Assembly: GCA_026708325.1 (NCBI GenBank)
Contig: JAPOVC010000022.1
Coordinates: forward strand, 1-64,000
Reading direction: 5' to 3'
Source of the DNA: Anaerolineaceae bacterium
GTDB taxonomy: Bacteria; Chloroflexota; Anaerolineae; Aggregatilineales; Phototrophicaceae
Length of the DNA: 64,000 nucleotides
The notes beneath the pieces were generated by a model. That model was not told where the DNA came from and ran no database searches. It worked only from the letters and a program-made list of their open reading frames with translations. The first letter of the stretch is position 1. Each line of letters opens with the position of its first letter. The translations under genes were made by a program, and so were the position numbers. This document shows positions 341 through 9,389 of the stretch, in pieces.

Positions 341-1087
341 CTAACGCCGCGAGCGCTGCCATTCACCGAAAGCAACAAGGACAAACGCCAGGGTCATCAG
401 CGCAATACAGGAATACATGATCCTGTCGTAGTTGATTCTAAACCCAACATTCGCCTCGGCCGTCGCTTCGCCAACCTTGCGGTCAAGCTCCACCAGGGGT
501 TCCATCACCCTCGCCTTGGCTGCGTGATACTCCGGGCCATACAGACGCAACGCCGCCGCGAGCGCTTCGCCCTCCAGAGCGTACTCCCCGTCGCCGGCCT
601 CAACCTGCCCCGCAATCACGTCCATGATCTCGTTCTCGATCACCGCCAGCGCGTTGGATTCGTCCTCGGCCCTTTCCAGTTCGGCGATCTCGGCCTCATA
701 CAGCCCGGCCTCCTGAACGAGTGTCCGGATTGCAACGGGTTCGCCTTCCTCGCCGCTGTGTTCACGCGACACCAACACAAGATCCCAGTAAGGCACGTCG
801 AAGTATCTGTCCGGTCTCGGCGCCAGACCGTTGCGAATATCCAGAATCTCGTCAAACCACTTCCTGTAATCTGGATCACCGGTGATGGCATACAGCCGCG
901 CCATGCGGGTCAGGTCGTCCGAGGTCCTTCGCAGTCCGTCCGCGAGATATAACGCACTCTGACGGGCAGCATTGAAGGCGGTCAGGCCGGGACGGATCAG
1001 ACGGTAACTTATGGCCAGGGTCAGGCAAAGTAACACTGCTACCAGAGCCAGAATAAAAACTATCCGGGTCGGACCGGTTTTAGGCAT
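341..1087 (-). CDS. receptor-like membrane protein, one sensory unit, no output domain
   Basis: Predicted 248-residue protein. An N-terminal membrane helix (about residues 9-30) leads into one ~160-residue helical unit (GLRRTSDDLTRMARLY, YFDVPYWD, LEGEAL, EYHAAKARVM), and a C-terminal helix ends in the short basic tail QRSRR. The positive-inside pattern puts the unit outside the membrane. From memory, units like this form the sensory part of some bacterial histidine kinases and cyclases; here nothing enzymatic follows. The ATG at 1087 has GGGGA six bases upstream, so I prefer it to the adjacent GTG at 1090. It is the last gene of a six-gene paralogous array and lies 53 bases after the next member, probably in the same transcript. 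Its unit is the most diverged copy (GLRRT for GLRQT, RLYGPEYH for RLHG). The ligand is unknown. Confidence 0.88.
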   Translation of the reverse strand: MPKTGPTRIVFILALVAVLLCLTLAISYRLIRPGLTAFNAARQSALYLADGLRRTSDDLTRMARLYAITGDPDYRKWFDEILDIRNGLAPRPDRYFDVPYWDLVLVSREHSGEEGEPVAIRTLVQEAGLYEAEIAELERAEDESNALAVIENEIMDVIAGQVEAGDGEYALEGEALAAALRLYGPEYHAAKARVMEPLVELDRKVGEATAEANVGFRINYDRIMYSCIALMTLAFVLVAFGEWQRSRR

Positions 1088-1140
1088 CACATGTCCCCAA
1101 CTATCATCCAGAATGACCTGTCAGCGATCTCCGGCTTCTC

Positions 1141-1914
1141 TTACGATTCCATACTATCCAGTCTTGCCTGTTGGCGTCTGCGCTGCCACATGCGGGCGAG
1201 AATCAGCAGGGCTGCCAATGTCACCAGACCCAGCGCATTCGCCATGTAATTGTTGTTGCGTCGCACGATTTCCTTGTGTCCCGCCGTGAGCGCCGAGTTT
1301 ATCTGCGTGTCGAGTTCTACCAGGGGTTCCATCACCCTTGCCTTGGCGGCATGATAGTCTAGGCCGTGCAGACGCTGCGCGGCCGCCAGGGCATCGCCCT
1401 CCAGCACGTAATTGCCCCCGCCGGCCTCAATGCTTGCTGCGATGATTTCCATGACCTCGACTTCCAGCACGGCGAGCTCATTGGATGCGTCTTCCGCCGC
1501 TACAAACAACGCGAGTTCGTTTTCAAAGAGACCGGCGTCACGCGCGAGCTCGCGAACAGGCACGGCGTCTCCATATTCCACCTGGCGTATGCCGGTGTCC
1601 AGCACGATATCCCAGTAAGGAATCTCGAAATACTTCACGGGCCTCGGCGACTCGCCGTTGCGAATAGCGAGGATTTCATCGAAGTATTCGATGTAGACGG
1701 GGTCTCCGGTCACAGCGTAAAGACGAATCATGCGCGTCAGGTCGTCCGAGGTTTGCCGCAGCCCGTCGGCAAAGGCCAATGCCGCCCGACGCGAGGAAAG
1801 GAAGCGGTGAATGTACTGACGGTAATCCTGAAATTCCATGAAGTTTATAGTGCCGGCCACAATAACCAGCAATGTCAACGCGACAAGCACTCTGGAAGCG
1901 ACGCCAGTGTTCAC
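1141..1914 (-). CDS. receptor-like membrane protein, one sensory unit, no output domain
   Basis: Second array member, about 257 residues: membrane helix, one unit (ADGLRQTSDDLTRMIRLY, YFEIPYWD, VLEGDAL, DYHAAKARVM), membrane helix, then a basic tail (MWQRRRQQARLDSMES) of about 15 residues, the longest in the family. No kinase, HAMP or methyl-accepting region is present. The GTG at 1914 has GAGG about nine bases upstream; the longer frame from a GTG at 1929 lacks a ribosome-binding site, so 1914 is preferred. A promoter candidate and an 8-bp direct repeat lie upstream. The unit is assumed to be extracytoplasmic from the flanking charges, and no function can be stated beyond sensing or binding. 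Confidence 0.88.
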   Translation of the reverse strand: MNTGVASRVLVALTLLVIVAGTINFMEFQDYRQYIHRFLSSRRAALAFADGLRQTSDDLTRMIRLYAVTGDPVYIEYFDEILAIRNGESPRPVKYFEIPYWDIVLDTGIRQVEYGDAVPVRELARDAGLFENELALFVAAEDASNELAVLEVEVMEIIAASIEAGGGNYVLEGDALAAAQRLHGLDYHAAKARVMEPLVELDTQINSALTAGHKEIVRRNNNYMANALGLVTLAALLILARMWQRRRQQARLDSMES

Positions 1915-1952
1915 TTTGTATTTCCTCACCCGGGTAAATTAAGTGGTTACAT

Positions 1953-1988
1953 TTCGCCAACTTTACCCAATGCTGGTCGCTTCGCCAA
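1953..1988. repeat. direct repeat TTCGCCAA x2, possible operator
   Basis: The octamer TTCGCCAA occurs at 1953-1960 and 1981-1988, 28 bp start to start. The copies flank the -10/-35 candidate of the gene starting at 1914, so they could be an operator. They could also be chance, since the repeat is short. Confidence 0.3.
1960..1988 (-). promoter_or_regulatory. promoter candidate for the two-gene unit 1914-341
   Basis: Minus-strand -35 TTGGCG (1988-1983), 17-bp spacer, -10 TAAAGT (1965-1960). This would start transcription near 1953, about 39 bases before the GTG at 1914. Match to consensus is moderate. Confidence 0.4.
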
Positions 1989-2321
1989 ACTTTTGTGAAG
2001 AACGACAAGTGTTCAATCCATGGATCATTGCTCTTCCGGCACGGGCGGCACGCCGCGCAAACTGACGGTACAAGCATTGTCCCGGTTGCCAACGGTGAAA
2101 CGTTTCATTGCCAACTGCAGGGCAATGCGCCGGGAATTCATGCCGCAGGCAAATCGGCGGACTCGCTCTTGCCCCATCGCTGCGAGATGAAGCGGTGGCC
2201 CCGAATTGCTTTTCAGTTGCCTGACAGCAAGGGCATCGGCCCATCACCCTGGCATGACGGATTCAGGCGAATGAACATTTCCAGCTGGCCGGCACAGGAC
2301 GGCCGGTTCCGACAGTGTCAG
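1989..2321. other. intergenic spacer between array members
   Basis: The 407-base gap between two array genes (1915-2321) contains the promoter candidate and direct repeat near 1953-1988 and a hairpin at 2283-2308. Short open frames cross it on both strands, but none has a recognisable product or a ribosome-binding site. I call no gene here. Confidence 0.5.
2283..2308 (-). terminator. GC-rich hairpin downstream of array gene, possible terminator
   Basis: Inverted repeat of about 9 bp with two G-U pairs (2283-2291 with 2300-2308, 8-base loop) begins 14 bases past the stop at 2322. No U-tract follows on the minus strand, so it may act as a Rho-dependent or mRNA-end-protecting structure instead. 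Confidence 0.35.
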
Positions 2322-3821
2322 TCATCGGCGCCGCAGCCAAACACCGGCAAGCGTAAGGAGAAAGGCCGCAGCAAGCGTATAGACCCCCAGGTTCAGAGAC
2401 TGGTCATTGAACTCTATGACGGCGTCGATCCAGGTCACGTAGGCTTCCTCGACCTTTCGCTCCAGTTCAACAAGCGGCTGCATCACCTGGGCCTTGGCCG
2501 CATGGTATTCCGGGCCGTGAAGCCGCAGCATGGCCTGCAGGGCCTCACCTTCAAGGGCGTAATCTCCGCCACTGGCATCGATCTGCGCCGCGACCACATC
2601 CATGATTTCGTTTTCGATTTCGGCCAGGGCGTTGGAGGCATCTTCAGCACGAATGAATTCGGCGAATTCGCCCTCGGTCAGACCTGCGTTGCCGGCACGG
2701 GTCCGGATAGCCACGGCCTCTCCGGCTTCTCCTGTACGTTCACCCGTGTCCAACACGATGTCCCAGTAGGGAACGTCGAAGTATTTCTCTGGCCGAGGTT
2801 CTATTCCGTTGCGAATGTCGAGTATTTCGTCGAAGTAACTCCGGTAAAGCGGATCCCCGTTGATCGCATAGAGACGAACCATGAGGGTCAGGTCATCTGA
2901 AGTCTGCCGAAGATTGTCGGCAAAGCTGCGCGCGGCCAGGCGCGCAGAAATGTTGCGACTGATCGTCGGCCGTTCACGCTGGAAATTGGCCACTGAGGTC
3001 AGGCTGAACAACACGCCGACCATGGAGAGCAAGGCAGCGAGTATTGCCAGGATCCTGGCCCGGCCAGCAGCTGGCAATGAGCGACGATTGACCAGAAATT
3101 CAAGGGCGACCAGCACAAGCGTCGCCGCCAGCAGGATGACCCCGTTCCTCAACCCCTGATCGTAAAAGGAGATGACCTGCGGTCTCAACTCGCCAAAGGA
3201 CTGGTCTACCTTGCGGCCAAGCTCCACCAGGTGCGTCATCACCTGGGCCTTTGCGGCAAAGTAGTCAGGGCCATGCAGACGTAGCATCGCATCCAGCGCC
3301 TCGCCCTCCAGGACGTAGTCGCCGTCGCTGGCACCGATCTGCGTCGCCACGATTTCCATGATTTCGTTTTCGATCACAGCGAGCGCATTGGAAGCGTCCT
3401 CGGCCTTTGAGATCTCGGCCAGTTCTTCCTCCAGCAATCCGGCTTCACTGGCAAGTGTCCGAATGGGAACAGCAGGGCCGTCGTCGCCAAAGCGTTCCCC
3501 TGTGTTGAGCACGATGTCCCAGTACGGAACGGAAAAATAATCTGCCGGGCGGGGCGCCTCGCCATTGCGGATGGCCAGGATTTCATCGAAGTATTCCCGA
3601 TAGACGGGGTCGCCATTCACGGCATACAGGCGGACCATGCGCGTCAGATCATCAGAGGTCTGCCTCAGGCGATCTGCAAAGGAAAGCGCAGCCCTTCGCG
3701 CCGTCCAGTTGCCCTGAACGACTTCACGCTCGGACAGAAAATTTGCAAGGTAGAAACCACTCACCAAAACGGCGAGCAGGGTCAGTAGCGACAAGGCACT
3801 CGCTGGTTTCATCCTGGACAT
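2322..3821 (-). CDS. receptor-like membrane protein, two tandem sensory units, no output domain
   Basis: About 499 residues, arranged helix - unit A (about 46-205) - helix - short basic linker (NRRSLPAAGRAR) - helix - unit B (about 300-455) - helix - tail LRRR. Both units keep the family core: LRQTSDDLT, RLYA, PYWDIVL, LEGEAL, RLHGP, AKAQVM. Positive charges in the linker and tail predict both units outside and the linker inside the cell. The ATG at 3821 follows a strong AAGGGGGG element; an upstream TTG at 3842 would only extend the N-terminus. There is no catalytic or transmitter domain. Units A and B look like products of an internal duplication. Confidence 0.9.
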   Translation of the reverse strand: MSRMKPASALSLLTLLAVLVSGFYLANFLSEREVVQGNWTARRAALSFADRLRQTSDDLTRMVRLYAVNGDPVYREYFDEILAIRNGEAPRPADYFSVPYWDIVLNTGERFGDDGPAVPIRTLASEAGLLEEELAEISKAEDASNALAVIENEIMEIVATQIGASDGDYVLEGEALDAMLRLHGPDYFAAKAQVMTHLVELGRKVDQSFGELRPQVISFYDQGLRNGVILLAATLVLVALEFLVNRRSLPAAGRARILAILAALLSMVGVLFSLTSVANFQRERPTISRNISARLAARSFADNLRQTSDDLTLMVRLYAINGDPLYRSYFDEILDIRNGIEPRPEKYFDVPYWDIVLDTGERTGEAGEAVAIRTRAGNAGLTEGEFAEFIRAEDASNALAEIENEIMDVVAAQIDASGGDYALEGEALQAMLRLHGPEYHAAKAQVMQPLVELERKVEEAYVTWIDAVIEFNDQSLNLGVYTLAAAFLLTLAGVWLRRR

Positions 3822-4157
3822 GGCACCCCCCTTATGTTTCAAAAGTCACTTGCTGAAGTTGCTGCCCGCCTCCACATTGTGTCAGAAATCTATCACGAAT
3901 TGCAAAGGAACATAGAGTAAAAGGAAATCAATGGTAATTGGATAACCATGGAGCGGCCACAACTTGAATTGCCCTACAGCCCGGTTACGCCTCATTTGCG
4001 GGTAGTCACGTCAAGCCGAATCACGAAACGGGTTGCAAATGCAGGTCCGGGCTCAGGCCAAATTGCGGCATCGCGGGAGTTGCCCGAACCGCAGCGAACC
4101 GGAACCATGTATCTAAGGGAAATGTCTGCTGCGGTCGATCAGGGGTGACACTCCTTC
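3822..4157. other. intergenic spacer between array members
   Basis: This 336-base gap holds a possible minus-strand promoter for the gene starting at 3821 (TTGCAA at 3905-3900, 18-bp spacer, CACAAT at 3881-3876) and an 8-bp inverted repeat near its far end. A 66-codon plus-strand frame at 3948-4148 has no recognisable product, and I do not call it. Confidence 0.5.
4088..4135 (-). terminator. inverted repeat downstream of array gene, possible terminator
   Basis: Perfect 8-bp inverted repeat ACCGCAGC (4088-4095) / GCTGCGGT (4128-4135) with a 32-base loop, 22 bases past the stop at 4158. There is no U-tract. It is one of a series of hairpins found in each wide gap of the array. Confidence 0.3.
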
Positions 4158-5678
4158 TTACCTGCGTCTTAGCCAAATGCTCACTGACAGCAGCAGAAAG
4201 GCCGCAATGATGGCATGGTAGCCGGTGAACAGCGATTGGGTGATGAAGCTGATCGTGCCATTGATCCAGGTGTCGTACTGCTCCTGGACCAGGCGCTCCA
4301 ACTCTACCAGGGGTTGCATGACCAACGCCTTGGCGGCGTGGTATTCCGCACCGTGAAGTCGCAGCATGGCCTCAAGAGACTCGCCTTCAAGGGCGTATTC
4401 GCCACCACTGGCAGCCAGGGATTCGTCGACGACATCCATCACTTCATTCTCAATGATTGCCAGGGCGTTGGATGCGTCCTCCGCCTTGCCAAACTCGGCC
4501 AACTCCGCGGGCGACAGTCCCGCAGTGCTGGCGAGTGACCTGATTGCTGCCGTCTGGCTGGCTGAGCCGGGCCGTATACCGGTGTCCAGCACAATGTCCC
4601 AGTACGGCAAATCGAAATATTCGTCGGGTCGCGGCTTTATGCCGTTCCTGATATCCAGAATCTCGTCAAAGTATTCTCGATAGCGCGCTTCTCCGGTAAC
4701 GGCGTACAGCCGCGCCATTCTGGTAAGGTCGTCCGAAGTCTGCCGCAGGGAGTCCGAGAATTCCCGGGCGGCAACACGCTCGGAGATGGTCTTGCTGACT
4801 GCAGGTTGGTCCCTCAGAAAGTTCGTGAACAACGAAAGACTCAACACAATCAAGGCAAAGGCCAGCACGGCGGCGACCAGACCGATCCCCCTGGCGCGAC
4901 TTTCCAGTGCCGCCTTCAGTCCCTTGCGACGCCACTGAACCCAAAGATCAACGGCAACCAACGCCAGAGTCAGGGCCAGCAGAATGATATTGTCTCTCAT
5001 ACTGCTGGTGGAAAGTGCGATGAGGTTCCGCCGCGCTACTCCAAAGGTTGCCCTGACGTTTCTGCCCAATTCTGCCAGATTGGACATGATCTCGGCCTTG
5101 GCACCGTGATATTCCTGGCTGTGCAGGCGCCGCATTGCCTCGAGTGTCTCGCCTTCCAGCAAATAATCTCCGTCGCCGTCCTCAATTGCCGAAGCAATGA
5201 CCGCCATGATTTCGTTTTCTATGACAGCCAGAGCGTTGGACGCGTCCTCGGCCTGCTGCAACAAGGCATTCTCTTCCTCCAGCATTCCCGCCCTGTTGGC
5301 CAGGGTCCTGATTGGGATAGCAGGCCCCGGTTCACCAAAGCGCTCGCCTGAATTCAGAACAATATCCCAGTAAGGGGTTGTGAAATAGTTGCGGGGGCGC
5401 GGTGCCTCGCCATTGCGAATGGCAAGAATCTCATCAAAGTAATCCCTGTAAAGCGGATCCCCGGTAACGGCATACAGCCGCACCATGCGCGTCAGATCGT
5501 CCGAGGTCTGTCGCAGTCTGTCGGACAAGGAAAGCGCAGCCATTCGCGATCGCCAGAATCCCTGAACAGATTCTCGCTCGTTCATGTAATTTGTCATGCT
5601 CAGCATGCTGGCGAGTACCGCCAGCAAGACGAGAAATGTTACCGCCGAGGATCCGTCGACACTCGCGAAACGCTTCAC
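4158..5678 (-). CDS. receptor-like membrane protein, two tandem sensory units, no output domain
   Basis: About 506 residues with the same plan as its neighbour: helix, unit A, helix, basic cytoplasmic-type linker (VQWRRKGLKAALESRAR), helix, unit B, helix, tail LRRR. Both units carry LRQTSDDLTRM, YFDEIL.IRNG, PYWDIVL, LEGE.LEAM and RLH..EYH.AKA. The GTG start at 5678 is supported by GGAGG eight bases upstream. It is collinear with the protein encoded at 2322-3821, including the Arg-rich ends, which suggests whole-gene duplication. No catalytic domain can be seen. Substrate and partner are unknown. Confidence 0.9.
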   Translation of the reverse strand: MKRFASVDGSSAVTFLVLLAVLASMLSMTNYMNERESVQGFWRSRMAALSLSDRLRQTSDDLTRMVRLYAVTGDPLYRDYFDEILAIRNGEAPRPRNYFTTPYWDIVLNSGERFGEPGPAIPIRTLANRAGMLEEENALLQQAEDASNALAVIENEIMAVIASAIEDGDGDYLLEGETLEAMRRLHSQEYHGAKAEIMSNLAELGRNVRATFGVARRNLIALSTSSMRDNIILLALTLALVAVDLWVQWRRKGLKAALESRARGIGLVAAVLAFALIVLSLSLFTNFLRDQPAVSKTISERVAAREFSDSLRQTSDDLTRMARLYAVTGEARYREYFDEILDIRNGIKPRPDEYFDLPYWDIVLDTGIRPGSASQTAAIRSLASTAGLSPAELAEFGKAEDASNALAIIENEVMDVVDESLAASGGEYALEGESLEAMLRLHGAEYHAAKALVMQPLVELERLVQEQYDTWINGTISFITQSLFTGYHAIIAAFLLLSVSIWLRRR

Positions 5679-5720
5679 AGTTTCGTCCTCCAGATATGGC
5701 AGTCCACGCCACAGGTGCTA

Positions 5721-5737
5721 CCAGTGTGAGCCACTGG
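5721..5737 (-). terminator. small hairpin between array genes
   Basis: Perfect 6-bp stem CCAGTG/CACTGG with a 5-base loop. It lies just beyond the larger 13-bp hairpin downstream of the gene that ends at 5795. The pair may form a compound terminator or leader structure for the next gene. Confidence 0.3.
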
Positions 5738-5741
5738 CGAG

Positions 5742-5781
5742 CCGGCCGCAGGGTCAAGACAGGGTTGCACCCTGCGGCCGG
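5742..5781 (-). terminator. strong 13-bp GC hairpin between array genes
   Basis: Perfect 13-bp inverted repeat CCGGCCGCAGGGT (5742-5754) / ACCCTGCGGCCGG (5769-5781) with a 14-base loop, 13 bases past the stop at 5795. It is very stable but has no U-tract on either strand. Its position downstream of one array gene and upstream of the next suggests a transcript boundary. Confidence 0.5.
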
Positions 5782-5794
5782 TCTCCGTTCCTGC

Positions 5795-7453
5795 CTATGA
5801 TGCCGGTTGGCGACTGCGATAAAGGGAAGCGACCAGTACCAGGGCCGCCAGCAGGAGGGATCCCGCCAACAGGTTCATGAGCGTGTCGAATTCGTCCCGC
5901 CCGGCTTCCTCTTCCTGTTCAAGATCCTGCTCCAGTTGGCGCGCCAGTTCCACGAGCGGTTGCATGATGCGGGCCTTGGCTTCATGGTATTCGGCGCCAT
6001 GCAAACGCAACATGCCATCCAGGGCCTCGCCCTCCAGGCGATAGTCGTCACCGGCGCTGGCGGATACCACATCCATCACCTCGTTTTCCAGTTCGGCAAG
6101 GATGTTGGACTGTTCTTCAGCCTCGCGCAGCAGCGACAAACTCGCGGAAGTGACGCCGGCCCGTTCCAGCAAGGTTCGGACGGCGACGGCTTCTCCTGAT
6201 TCCCCGAGCCGGTGGTTGGTGGCCAGTACGAAGTCCCAGTAAGGGACCTCAAAGTAAAGTTCAGGCCGCGGCGCATCGCCATTGCGGATGGCCAGAATCT
6301 CGTCGAAATACTCCCGGTAGTTGTCTTCTCCGGTGATGGCATAGAGACGCGCCATGCGTGTCAAATCGTCAGAGGTCTGGCGCAAGCCGTCGGACAGGAA
6401 GATTTCGCTTTGGCGACGTGCTGCATTGAGGCCGGTGGCGTCGTTGGTTGCAAGGCTTTGCCGGCCGAGAAAAATGGACGCCAGCACGAGCAGCAGCGCG
6501 AGGGACGGCAGGATGGATTCGCGCGGATTCTGCCGGTCCACTGCCAGCACCAGTGCGACGGCCGCAACGACAGTCACAATCATCAGAATGTCCACATGTT
6601 GCTGCAGGAAATTGTGCGCGATTCCCTCAACAATCAGGACGTCCAGGCCAGAACCCGTCACCAGTTCGACCAAAGGCTGCATGATCAGCGCCTTGGCATC
6701 ATGGTACTCCTGACCATGCAGTCGCTGCAGGGCGTCCAGCGTCTCACCTTCAAATGCGAGACCGTCCTCGCCGACATTGGCTTCAATGACGTCCATGACA
6801 TCTTCTTCCAGCTTGGCGAGAAGATTGGACTGCCTCTCCGATTCCTGCAGCATGGCCTGTTCTCCCGACCGCAGACCGGCCTGCTGCATCAGAGACTGTA
6901 TGGATGCGGGCGCACCCAGGTCGCCGGGTCGCTCTCCCGTGGCCAGTGCGATATCCCAGTAGGGAATTTCGTAGTATTGCTCCGGCCGCGGGGCGATTCC
7001 GTTGCGAATGTCGAGGATTTCCTCGAAGTAGTCTCTGTAGACCTCTTCACCTGTCGCTGCGTACAGGCGCACCATGCGAGTCAGATCGTCGGAGGTCTGC
7101 CGCAATCCATCCGCCAGGTGGTAGAGTTCGCGCCGCTGGAGTCCGTCGGCCCTGATGTCATTGATTCCCGAGTAGGTCAGGGGCACAAGCACCAGCGCCA
7201 CAAGAACCAGCAGCAGGCCCAGCGACTCGGCCTTTGGCATATGAAAACGTCTCTGAAGCAGACCGTAAATGGAGACCAGGACTGTCAAGCCAAAAAGCGC
7301 GGCGATGATGATCAGCCATTGTTGCAGGTAGTTCTGAGCCATGTTGGGGGCGCCGAATTGCCCTTCACCCTCGCCGCCGGCCAGTTGCGCCAGTTGAAAA
7401 ATCGTGAGTGCCTCTATGTCATAGAACCAGATCAGGCTGTGCATACTGCTCAT
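5795..7453 (-). CDS. receptor-like membrane protein, two sensory units plus extra N-terminal helix
   Basis: About 552 residues and five predicted membrane helices. A unique ~40-residue N-terminus is followed by a helix (WLIIIAALFGLTVLVSIYGL), a second helix, unit A (LRQTSDDLTRMVRLY, YYEIPYWD, FEGETL), two helices, unit B (YFEVPYWD, LEGEAL, EYHEAKARIM), a final helix and tail RSRQPAS. The odd helix number predicts an outside N-terminus if both units are outside. The stretch YLQQWLIII before the first helix resembles FLQQHVDIL before the third, as if a leading third unit had been lost. The ATG at 7453 has GGGGGG eight bases upstream and is preferred to a TTG at 7483. No output domain is present. 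Confidence 0.88.
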   Translation of the reverse strand: MSSMHSLIWFYDIEALTIFQLAQLAGGEGEGQFGAPNMAQNYLQQWLIIIAALFGLTVLVSIYGLLQRRFHMPKAESLGLLLVLVALVLVPLTYSGINDIRADGLQRRELYHLADGLRQTSDDLTRMVRLYAATGEEVYRDYFEEILDIRNGIAPRPEQYYEIPYWDIALATGERPGDLGAPASIQSLMQQAGLRSGEQAMLQESERQSNLLAKLEEDVMDVIEANVGEDGLAFEGETLDALQRLHGQEYHDAKALIMQPLVELVTGSGLDVLIVEGIAHNFLQQHVDILMIVTVVAAVALVLAVDRQNPRESILPSLALLLVLASIFLGRQSLATNDATGLNAARRQSEIFLSDGLRQTSDDLTRMARLYAITGEDNYREYFDEILAIRNGDAPRPELYFEVPYWDFVLATNHRLGESGEAVAVRTLLERAGVTSASLSLLREAEEQSNILAELENEVMDVVSASAGDDYRLEGEALDGMLRLHGAEYHEAKARIMQPLVELARQLEQDLEQEEEAGRDEFDTLMNLLAGSLLLAALVLVASLYRSRQPAS

Positions 7454-7898
7454 GGGCAGAACCCCCCGATGTACTCGTTGCAAGAGAATAACCGGAAAGC
7501 ATTGTGTGCGAAAACTTTCACGCCAAGGAAACCAATGTCAATGCTTGCCTCCCTGAATGTTACCCCAAACATTGCCACGTGACAGAACATGGTTCACGGT
7601 GCGGGAGTGGGCAATCCCTTACAGTAATCAAAAGCCAGTGAACATCCATGAGCTGACTCAAGACAGCGGCAATGACTGGAAGAACCGGTTCTCGCGGCAA
7701 TGCCGCCAGCGACGTGCCGGGGAATGACGTCCTGAGCACCCTGCACGACAGTTACCTGGCAGGTTCAGCATAAAATGTCCCAGGACGACCCGGATACCAC
7801 CCGGTCAAGGCGATAGGGCACAGGAGGGCAAAACAGGAATTGCTGTCCGGCCCTCCGCTCGCAGTGTTCTGTTGCTGACCCTTATACGTTGCCGGAAG
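7454..7898. other. intergenic spacer between array members
   Basis: This 445-base gap contains a promoter candidate for the gene starting at 7453 (TTGACA at 7541-7536, 17-bp spacer, AAAGTT at 7518-7513) and the hairpin at 7823-7856. I see no coding sequence with a recognisable product. Confidence 0.5.
7823..7856 (-). terminator. hairpin downstream of array gene, possible terminator
   Basis: Perfect 7-bp outer stem GGAGGGC/GCCCTCC (7823-7829 with 7850-7856), a 3x3 internal loop, then a 4-bp inner stem ACAG/CTGT with a 6-base loop. It lies 43 bases beyond the stop at 7899. No U-tract follows. Confidence 0.4.
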
Positions 7899-9389
7899 CT
7901 AACGGCCTTCTCGCCTCCACAGGACCACGGCAGCAAGACTGAACAAAATGGATAGCCCCATGGCCGCGCCAAAGAAAACGCTGTTCTGCTGCCCGGTTGC
8001 CAATGCCTCTTGTCTTGCATCCGCCAAACGTTGCTGGACGGACCTGGCGAGATTGACCAGCGGGAGCATGATTCTTGCCTTGGCCCTGTGGTAGTCCTCG
8101 CCATGCAGTCGCTGCAAGGCGATGCCTGGCGGGCCGCTCAAATCGTAGTCGCCGCCTCCTGCGATCGCTGCTGCGACAACTTCCATGGCGCGATTTTCAA
8201 GAACGACCAGTTCGTTGGAGGCATCTTCCGCCTCGGCCAGCAGGTCCAGTTCACCCCCCGTAAAGTCCCGTTCCGAAATGAGCGTCCTGATCGGTATTGA
8301 GTCGCCAAAGTCCCCCGGATGTCTGCCAGTGGCCAGCACAATGTCCCAGTATGGCACCTCGAAATAGCGTTCCGGCCGCGGAGATTCTCCATTGCGAATC
8401 GCCAATATCTCGTCGAAGTAGTCACGATACACCGGGTCGCCGGTTGCGGCGTAGAGACGCACCATGCGGGTCAGGTCGTCCGACGTTTGCCTCAGGCCAT
8501 CGGAAAGCGTGTAGGACCGGTAGCGTTCCCCGAAGGTGTCCGCCAGTAAGTCAACATTGTCCTGGGTGCGCAGGGTAAGGGCCGCGAATACCAGCATGGA
8601 GACAATGGCGAGCAATGTGACCAGGGGCGCCCCACGTCGGAGAGACTGCCCCGTGCCGCGCGCATGCGCGACGGCGACAAGCCCGATCAACACGCCGAGA
8701 GCGACCAGTCCCAATACGACACTGTTCATTTCCCGCACCGAGCCCACAATGTCCCGTGCCCCTTCCTCATCGGTGGCAAACTCCGACAGGAGCACTAGCG
8801 GACGCATGATGCGTTCCTTGGCAACGTGATACTCCTGGCCATGCAGCCGTTGCATGGCTGCAAGGGCCTCCCCTTCCAGCCGGTAGGTCCCGTCGCCTGC
8901 CTCAACTTGCGCGGCAACGACATCCATGACCTCGTTTTCGAGTTCGACCAGGACGTTTGACCAGTCCTCGGCATCCGCCAGCAGCGTCACTTCAAGGCGG
9001 GAAGCGTCAGACCCGGTTATCAACTCCCTGATCGGCACTGTTTCGCCGGCCTCGCCCTGGTGCTCGCCCGTTGCCAGTACCAGATCCCAGTAGGGAATCT
9101 GGAAATAGCGGGCAGGTCGAGCCTGTTCGCCGTTACGAATGGCAAGAATTTGGTCGAAATAGTCCTTGTAGAGCGGGTCGCCCGTTACGGCATACAGGCG
9201 AACCATGCGGGTGAGATCGTCCGAGGTCTGCCGCAGGCCGTCAGTAAGCACATAGTTGACGTAATTGGAACGTGTTTCCTCATTGCGCCGGGAAAGAATT
9301 CCTCGTTGTTCAACATACAAAAGCACGGCGGCGACGATGGCCAAAAGCGCCAGAAGTGCGGCGTAAAATGGCGAGAACCGGATATTCAT
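7899..9389 (-). CDS. receptor-like membrane protein, two tandem sensory units, no output domain
   Basis: First gene of the array in transcription order, about 496 residues: helix (about 8-27), unit A (TDGLRQTSDDLTRMVRLY, YFQIPYWDLVL, LEGEAL, EYHVAKERIM), helix, short linker (HARGTGQSLRR), helix, unit B (YFEVPYWDIVL, DYHRAKARIM), helix, tail RREGR. Unit B replaces the usual LEGEAL with LSGPPGIAL, the clearest divergence of that motif in the set. The ATG at 9389 has GGGAG just upstream. No enzymatic domain is present. Sensing, binding or a structural membrane role is all that can be proposed. Confidence 0.9.
   Translation of the reverse strand: MNIRFSPFYAALLALLAIVAAVLLYVEQRGILSRRNEETRSNYVNYVLTDGLRQTSDDLTRMVRLYAVTGDPLYKDYFDQILAIRNGEQARPARYFQIPYWDLVLATGEHQGEAGETVPIRELITGSDASRLEVTLLADAEDWSNVLVELENEVMDVVAAQVEAGDGTYRLEGEALAAMQRLHGQEYHVAKERIMRPLVLLSEFATDEEGARDIVGSVREMNSVVLGLVALGVLIGLVAVAHARGTGQSLRRGAPLVTLLAIVSMLVFAALTLRTQDNVDLLADTFGERYRSYTLSDGLRQTSDDLTRMVRLYAATGDPVYRDYFDEILAIRNGESPRPERYFEVPYWDIVLATGRHPGDFGDSIPIRTLISERDFTGGELDLLAEAEDASNELVVLENRAMEVVAAAIAGGGDYDLSGPPGIALQRLHGEDYHRAKARIMLPLVNLARSVQQRLADARQEALATGQQNSVFFGAAMGLSILFSLAAVVLWRREGR

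Follow-up and report, generated by a model that had tools for sequence, protein, structure and literature searches.

The question raised by this locus is what receptor-like membrane proteins can do when none of them carries an output domain of its own. The window, by which we mean the whole stretch of 64,000 nucleotides analyzed here from an Anaerolineaceae genome, begins with six minus-strand open reading frames (positions 341 to 9389) that code, from the lowest coordinate upwards, for 1, 1, 2, 2, 2, and 2 copies of one unit of ~165 residues. A sequence-only reading had described ten units in six adjacent same-strand genes, and the alignment bears this out. All ten copies align unambiguously over their full length, with 46 invariant columns and 51 to 67% identity to the first copy, and from hydropathy, membrane helices are predicted to flank each unit. 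Short arginine-rich tails and loops lie on the presumed cytoplasmic side, which, by the positive-inside rule, would place the units outside the membrane. The proteins stop a few residues past the last membrane helix, and a Pfam scan of all six found no output family.

The first gene of the array (7899 to 9389; all array genes lie on the minus strand) codes for a two-unit stand-alone receptor protein of 496 amino acids, with units at approximately residues 40 to 215 and 287 to 462. Next comes a two-unit gene at 5795 to 7483, listed as 562 amino acids from a TTG codon and with its start probably internal, which has an ortholog at L038:2-1450; its product has an additional N-terminal membrane helix (residues 57 to 75) that is absent from the other five array proteins. 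The two-unit protein encoded at 4158 to 5678 (506 amino acids; ortholog at L038:1516-3081) consists of what we call an a-half and a b-half. Another two-unit protein, at 2322 to 3842, counts 506 amino acids from a TTG codon with a likely ATG a few codons in, and has a paralog on contig C17 (L012:7105-8619). For both listed TTG starts, at 3842 and 7483, the true start is probably an ATG further downstream. The last two genes, at 1141 to 1929 and 341 to 1090 (249 amino acids), code for single-unit proteins. Scans for promoters and terminators did no better than shuffled sequence.

Base 1 of the window is base 1 of contig C20, so that the array abuts an assembly break. Within this contig end (positions 1 to 340), bases 1 to 121 are duplicated near the end of contig C12 (L013:8994-9114, 97.5% identity), and this repeat probably broke the assembly at this point. 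The ten copies are therefore a minimum, and the array may extend beyond the first base of C20. We rejected the possibility that the array is an artefact of one assembly. The DNA repeats share at least 60% identity with the reference copies (mostly 65 to 75%), a divergence that marks them as paralogs and not as assembly stutter, and orthologs are present in two other genomes.

The unit is homologous to domains found N-terminal of signaling outputs, as judged by profile and partly by eye. Scanning genome contigs with a profile built from the ten units gave 43 loci, eight of them stand-alone (L038 to L042, L044, L049, and L080), while the remaining 35 extend well beyond the unit or are truncated where a contig stops. 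Ten representatives of the latter were scanned with Pfam, and nine had output domains: HisKA/HATPase with receiver domains, GGDEF with EAL, and GGDEF with hemerythrin. The tenth, cut by a contig end, had no Pfam match. Fused homologs include GGDEF/EAL proteins of Methylotenera and Sulfuricurvum, a GGDEF-EAL protein of Rheinheimera, a hybrid kinase of Pseudofrankia, and gammaproteobacterial proteins of MCP-, cyclase-, and phosphatase-like types, the last three recognized by eye. They share the same domain by sequence (~35 to 50% identity) but possess their own output domains, and in the tree the stand-alone units group separately. The earlier proposal that the array amplifies the receptor portion of established kinds of receptors is supported.

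Despite this wide use as the sensor part of known kinds of receptors, the unit is without a family model in Pfam or NCBIfam. Neither database, nor PDB by sequence, gave a match spanning it, and no Pfam or NCBIfam family matched more than one of the 47 members scanned, the hits being scattered, single, and weak; none of the curated sensor-domain profiles in these databases matched the members consistently, and a PDB profile search with the unit returned nothing relevant. A known enzyme had been named as the finding that would undo the receptor interpretation. One of the six proteins, that at 2322 to 3842, passed the Pfam cutoff for HgmA_C (homogentisate dioxygenase), with 24 bits. We set this match aside as due to chance: unit by unit, none of the 47 members matched at an E value of 0.01, and the predicted structure is nearly all helix. 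The match, almost certainly spurious, could mislead automatic annotation of this protein.

AlphaFold predicts the 249-residue protein at 341 to 1090 (with 47 sequences) as a four-helix bundle with a pLDDT of 95 and a pTM of 0.86. In the model, helices span residues 6 to 70, 73 to 86, and 132 to 165, with a less regular stretch containing the PRP and YWD motifs before the third, and a last helix runs from residue 186 through the membrane to 248; helices 1 and 4 continue unbroken into their membrane segments. Among solved structures, the best matches are to sensor domains, at Z scores of 10 to 12, although helical bundles may reach 13 by chance. The histidine kinase HK9 (3va9) gave a Z score of 12.3 (rmsd 2.6 over 127 residues) and Adeh_2942 (4k0d), which likewise lacks a significant Pfam match (PMC3831638), one of 12.0 (rmsd 2.9 over 143 residues), values of about 12 being attainable by chance for such folds. 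As modeled, the unit would resemble these two, as well as MCP2201, Tsr/Tar, and NarQ, in being a helical bundle of similar size between two membrane helices, a likeness by structure match, but has no detectable sequence relation to any of them. The array proteins also differ from known four-helix-bundle sensors in lacking HAMP, kinase, and methyl-accepting parts, and in that one chain often holds two different bundles. For the two-unit protein at 4158 to 5678 (pLDDT 87, pTM 0.81, from only seven sequences), the model suggests that the two bundles of one chain may adopt a defined mutual arrangement, and no solved chain was a convincing match for this tandem. We show that a membrane-anchored extracytoplasmic domain, a homolog of the sensor half of ordinary transmembrane receptors with a predicted four-helix-bundle fold, makes up complete proteins that have no output domain.

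The remainder of the genome (3.3 Mb in total) follows the same rule. A profile search found 17 units in 11 proteins, of which the seven units outside the array belong to five genes on three contigs (C5, C12, and C17). All 17 lie within one- or two-unit proteins and none is fused to an output, as the sequence-only reading had supposed from the array when it spoke of amplification without kinase, HAMP, or methyl-accepting parts. Compared with a histidine kinase, a diguanylate cyclase, or a chemoreceptor, these chains lack a kinase, GGDEF, cyclase, or MCP output of their own. Against the 11 receptor proteins, a profile scan of the genome found seven HisKA matches; MCPsignal had no match, and flagellar and chemotaxis genes were likewise not found in six sponge-associated Chloroflexi genomes (PMC6306507).

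At the stand-alone loci examined, no kinase or other output gene is adjacent, which weighs against the receptor reading preferred below. Together with the missing output domain and the large copy number in one genome, this absence of linked signaling genes would fit proteins that merely bind a host- or community-derived molecule at the outer membrane face and hold it for uptake or as a decoy, with no signaling involved. An ammonium transporter near one copy (L011) and ABC sugar-type transporter genes near others (L012), all named by eye, point the same way, but the transporter neighbors differ between loci. Capture would also have no need of the two membrane helices or of the unbroken passage from helix 4 into the membrane, and both features are retained. 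We regard such a role as somewhat unlikely.

Beyond the array, the stand-alone form also occurs in Dehalococcoidia, Dadabacteria, Poribacteria, and one Pseudomonadales genome. There it is always a single gene per genome, and amplification is seen only in the genus of the window. Conserved synteny of the array across Chloroflexota, which had been proposed as a check, is not supported. In the family of the window, the unit occurs in 3 of 98 genomes and 1 of 24 genera, and a sample of 400 Chloroflexota genomes contained it twice, in this genome and in one where it has a fused MCP-like end (by eye). Within the genus, genome 277c_24 (L038) has the orthologs of 5795 to 7483 and 4158 to 5678 adjacent, as in the window, and RHO3_bin_8 (L039) has the ortholog of 7899 to 9389 at the same site, flanked by PerM-type transporter-like and M20 peptidase genes. 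In this last copy (L039:5860-7400), one base is deleted and a nonsense codon is present, near a poor-quality contig end closing in poly-G, and the gene is either broken or misassembled.

Among 250 genomes of the Dehalococcoidia order of L042, five have the unit, always stand-alone. The gene at L044:5872-6675, also from Dehalococcoidia, has a GIYWDF segment internally repeated within the unit, and at L044:1894-4048, upstream of the stand-alone receptor gene in that genome, are the Septu-type defense genes PtuA and PtuB, with the same pair seen by eye in L080. Of 58 Dadabacteria genomes, eight match: seven have the complete stand-alone gene and one a remnant. The site is conserved in all of them, with MFS/SRPBCC genes on one side and metF-ubiE on the other; the SRPBCC gene was undetected there in G804 (L117), and the remnant, in G803 (L118), amounts to just 59 residues. 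One of 85 Poribacteria genomes has a stand-alone gene. L040 is the sole stand-alone case among 17 unit-bearing genomes of its Pseudomonadales order (245 sampled), the others having long C termini that resemble, by eye, MCP, kinase, GGDEF, cyclase, or phosphatase ends. A search for phage carriage in IMG/VR, with the one usable peptide pattern, gave no match. The stand-alone version is not described in the literature that we searched, a silence that counts as weak evidence of absence.

Eleven residues (T56, S57, D59, T61, R86, G88, P93, W102, E152, Y188, and K192 in the numbering of the 341-to-1090 protein) are invariant and common to fused and stand-alone proteins. The genus of the window has an extra proline before the YWD motif compared with the other members shown. 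That the most conserved positions are those of the fused sensors, and not specific to the array, bears on whether the bundles might simply pack as a surface coat or adhesion lattice that has lost ligand binding. A large set of similar, short-tailed membrane proteins is what such an envelope structure would look like, but the single gene in the other stand-alone genomes does not suit a lattice, and we find this role distinctly unlikely.

In the tree of units, the 37 stand-alone units group together, interrupted by one long-branch fused row (L134). Constraining them to one clade was not rejected (AU test, P = 0.29), although the clade itself was not demonstrated. The simplest reading would be a single origin of the stand-alone form followed by transfer between phyla. 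When half-proteins are compared, the a-halves of 2322, 4158, and the C17 paralog (C17_7105) form one group and their b-halves another, with supports of 91/97 and 92/90 that fall below the starred level. The fusion of a with b is therefore probably older than these gene duplications. In several two-unit proteins, the two halves belong to separate and ancient lineages, a pattern suggestive of fixed pairs. Two of the five two-unit genes in which both halves were compared (7899 and C5_8289) show no such split. The two single-unit genes, transcribed in the order 1141, then 341, fall close to the a group and the b group, respectively. For 341, the grouping with b-halves has a support of 94/95 in the half-protein tree. 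For 1141, a grouping with a-halves appears in the unit trees, but in half-protein trees its placement is not significant: the grouping is absent from the best tree and was not rejected when imposed (AU test, P = 0.26).

It had been argued that conservation of all ten copies reflects selection, with a Ka/Ks ratio near 1 as the result that would speak against it, and the ratios support the argument. Between orthologs in the genus of the window, dN/dS is 0.04 to 0.09, except for 0.29 in the broken second unit of RHO3_bin_8, and it is 0.16 to 0.33 in the stand-alone genes of Dadabacteria; such low values indicate that these genes are kept by purifying selection. Drifting remnants of receptor genes that have lost their output domain would be expected to look otherwise. 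The frameshifted and interrupted copy in RHO3_bin_8 and the fragment in one Dadabacteria genome are what decay would leave, but the former adjoins a poor-quality contig end, all 11 genes of the present genome have complete reading frames, and the site is conserved in those Dadabacteria that have a copy. We therefore consider decay highly improbable. Conservation of this kind would also fit binding, capture, or a structural role without signaling.

The reading that we prefer, at a probability of roughly 0.4, is that the array codes for ligand-binding receptor pairs without an output of their own that act via membrane partners. As no output domain is present, the unit would have to bind something extracellular and act without a signaling part of its own. 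A two-unit protein, or a neighboring pair of a and b genes, would form a receptor-type dimer, and this dimer may bind the same class of ligand as the fused relatives, as the invariant residues common to both suggest. Helix-helix contacts within the membrane could then relay the bound state to partners, the likeliest being a subset of the few histidine kinases, or a transporter, and many related receptor heads would in this way broaden or tune the input of few output proteins. A precedent for such a way of working is RetS-GacS, presented in PMC12148439 as a model of noncanonical crosstalk in which one membrane sensor modulates another. RetS, however, is itself a sensor kinase, while the array proteins have no cytoplasmic domain and their partnership is putative.

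Judging from the prefix RHO3 in its name and from the R. odorabile samples of PMC8163846, at least one genome of the genus seems to be sponge-derived, and, if so, host molecules suggest themselves as candidate ligands. A wider proposal, which we hold to be somewhat unlikely, is that transmembrane receptors without outputs form a class of their own that spans several bacterial phyla, this apparently sponge-derived lineage among them. Their paired bundles would sense a molecule outside the cell and act solely via partners, and in one Anaerolineae genus they would have been amplified into a repertoire that exceeds the set of HisKA kinases. Defining the unit as a family would improve the annotation of the many kinases, cyclases, and chemoreceptors that use it as a sensor. 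If the stand-alone copies do signal via partners, bacterial receptors could be organized like multisubunit receptors, in which distinct ligand heads feed common outputs.
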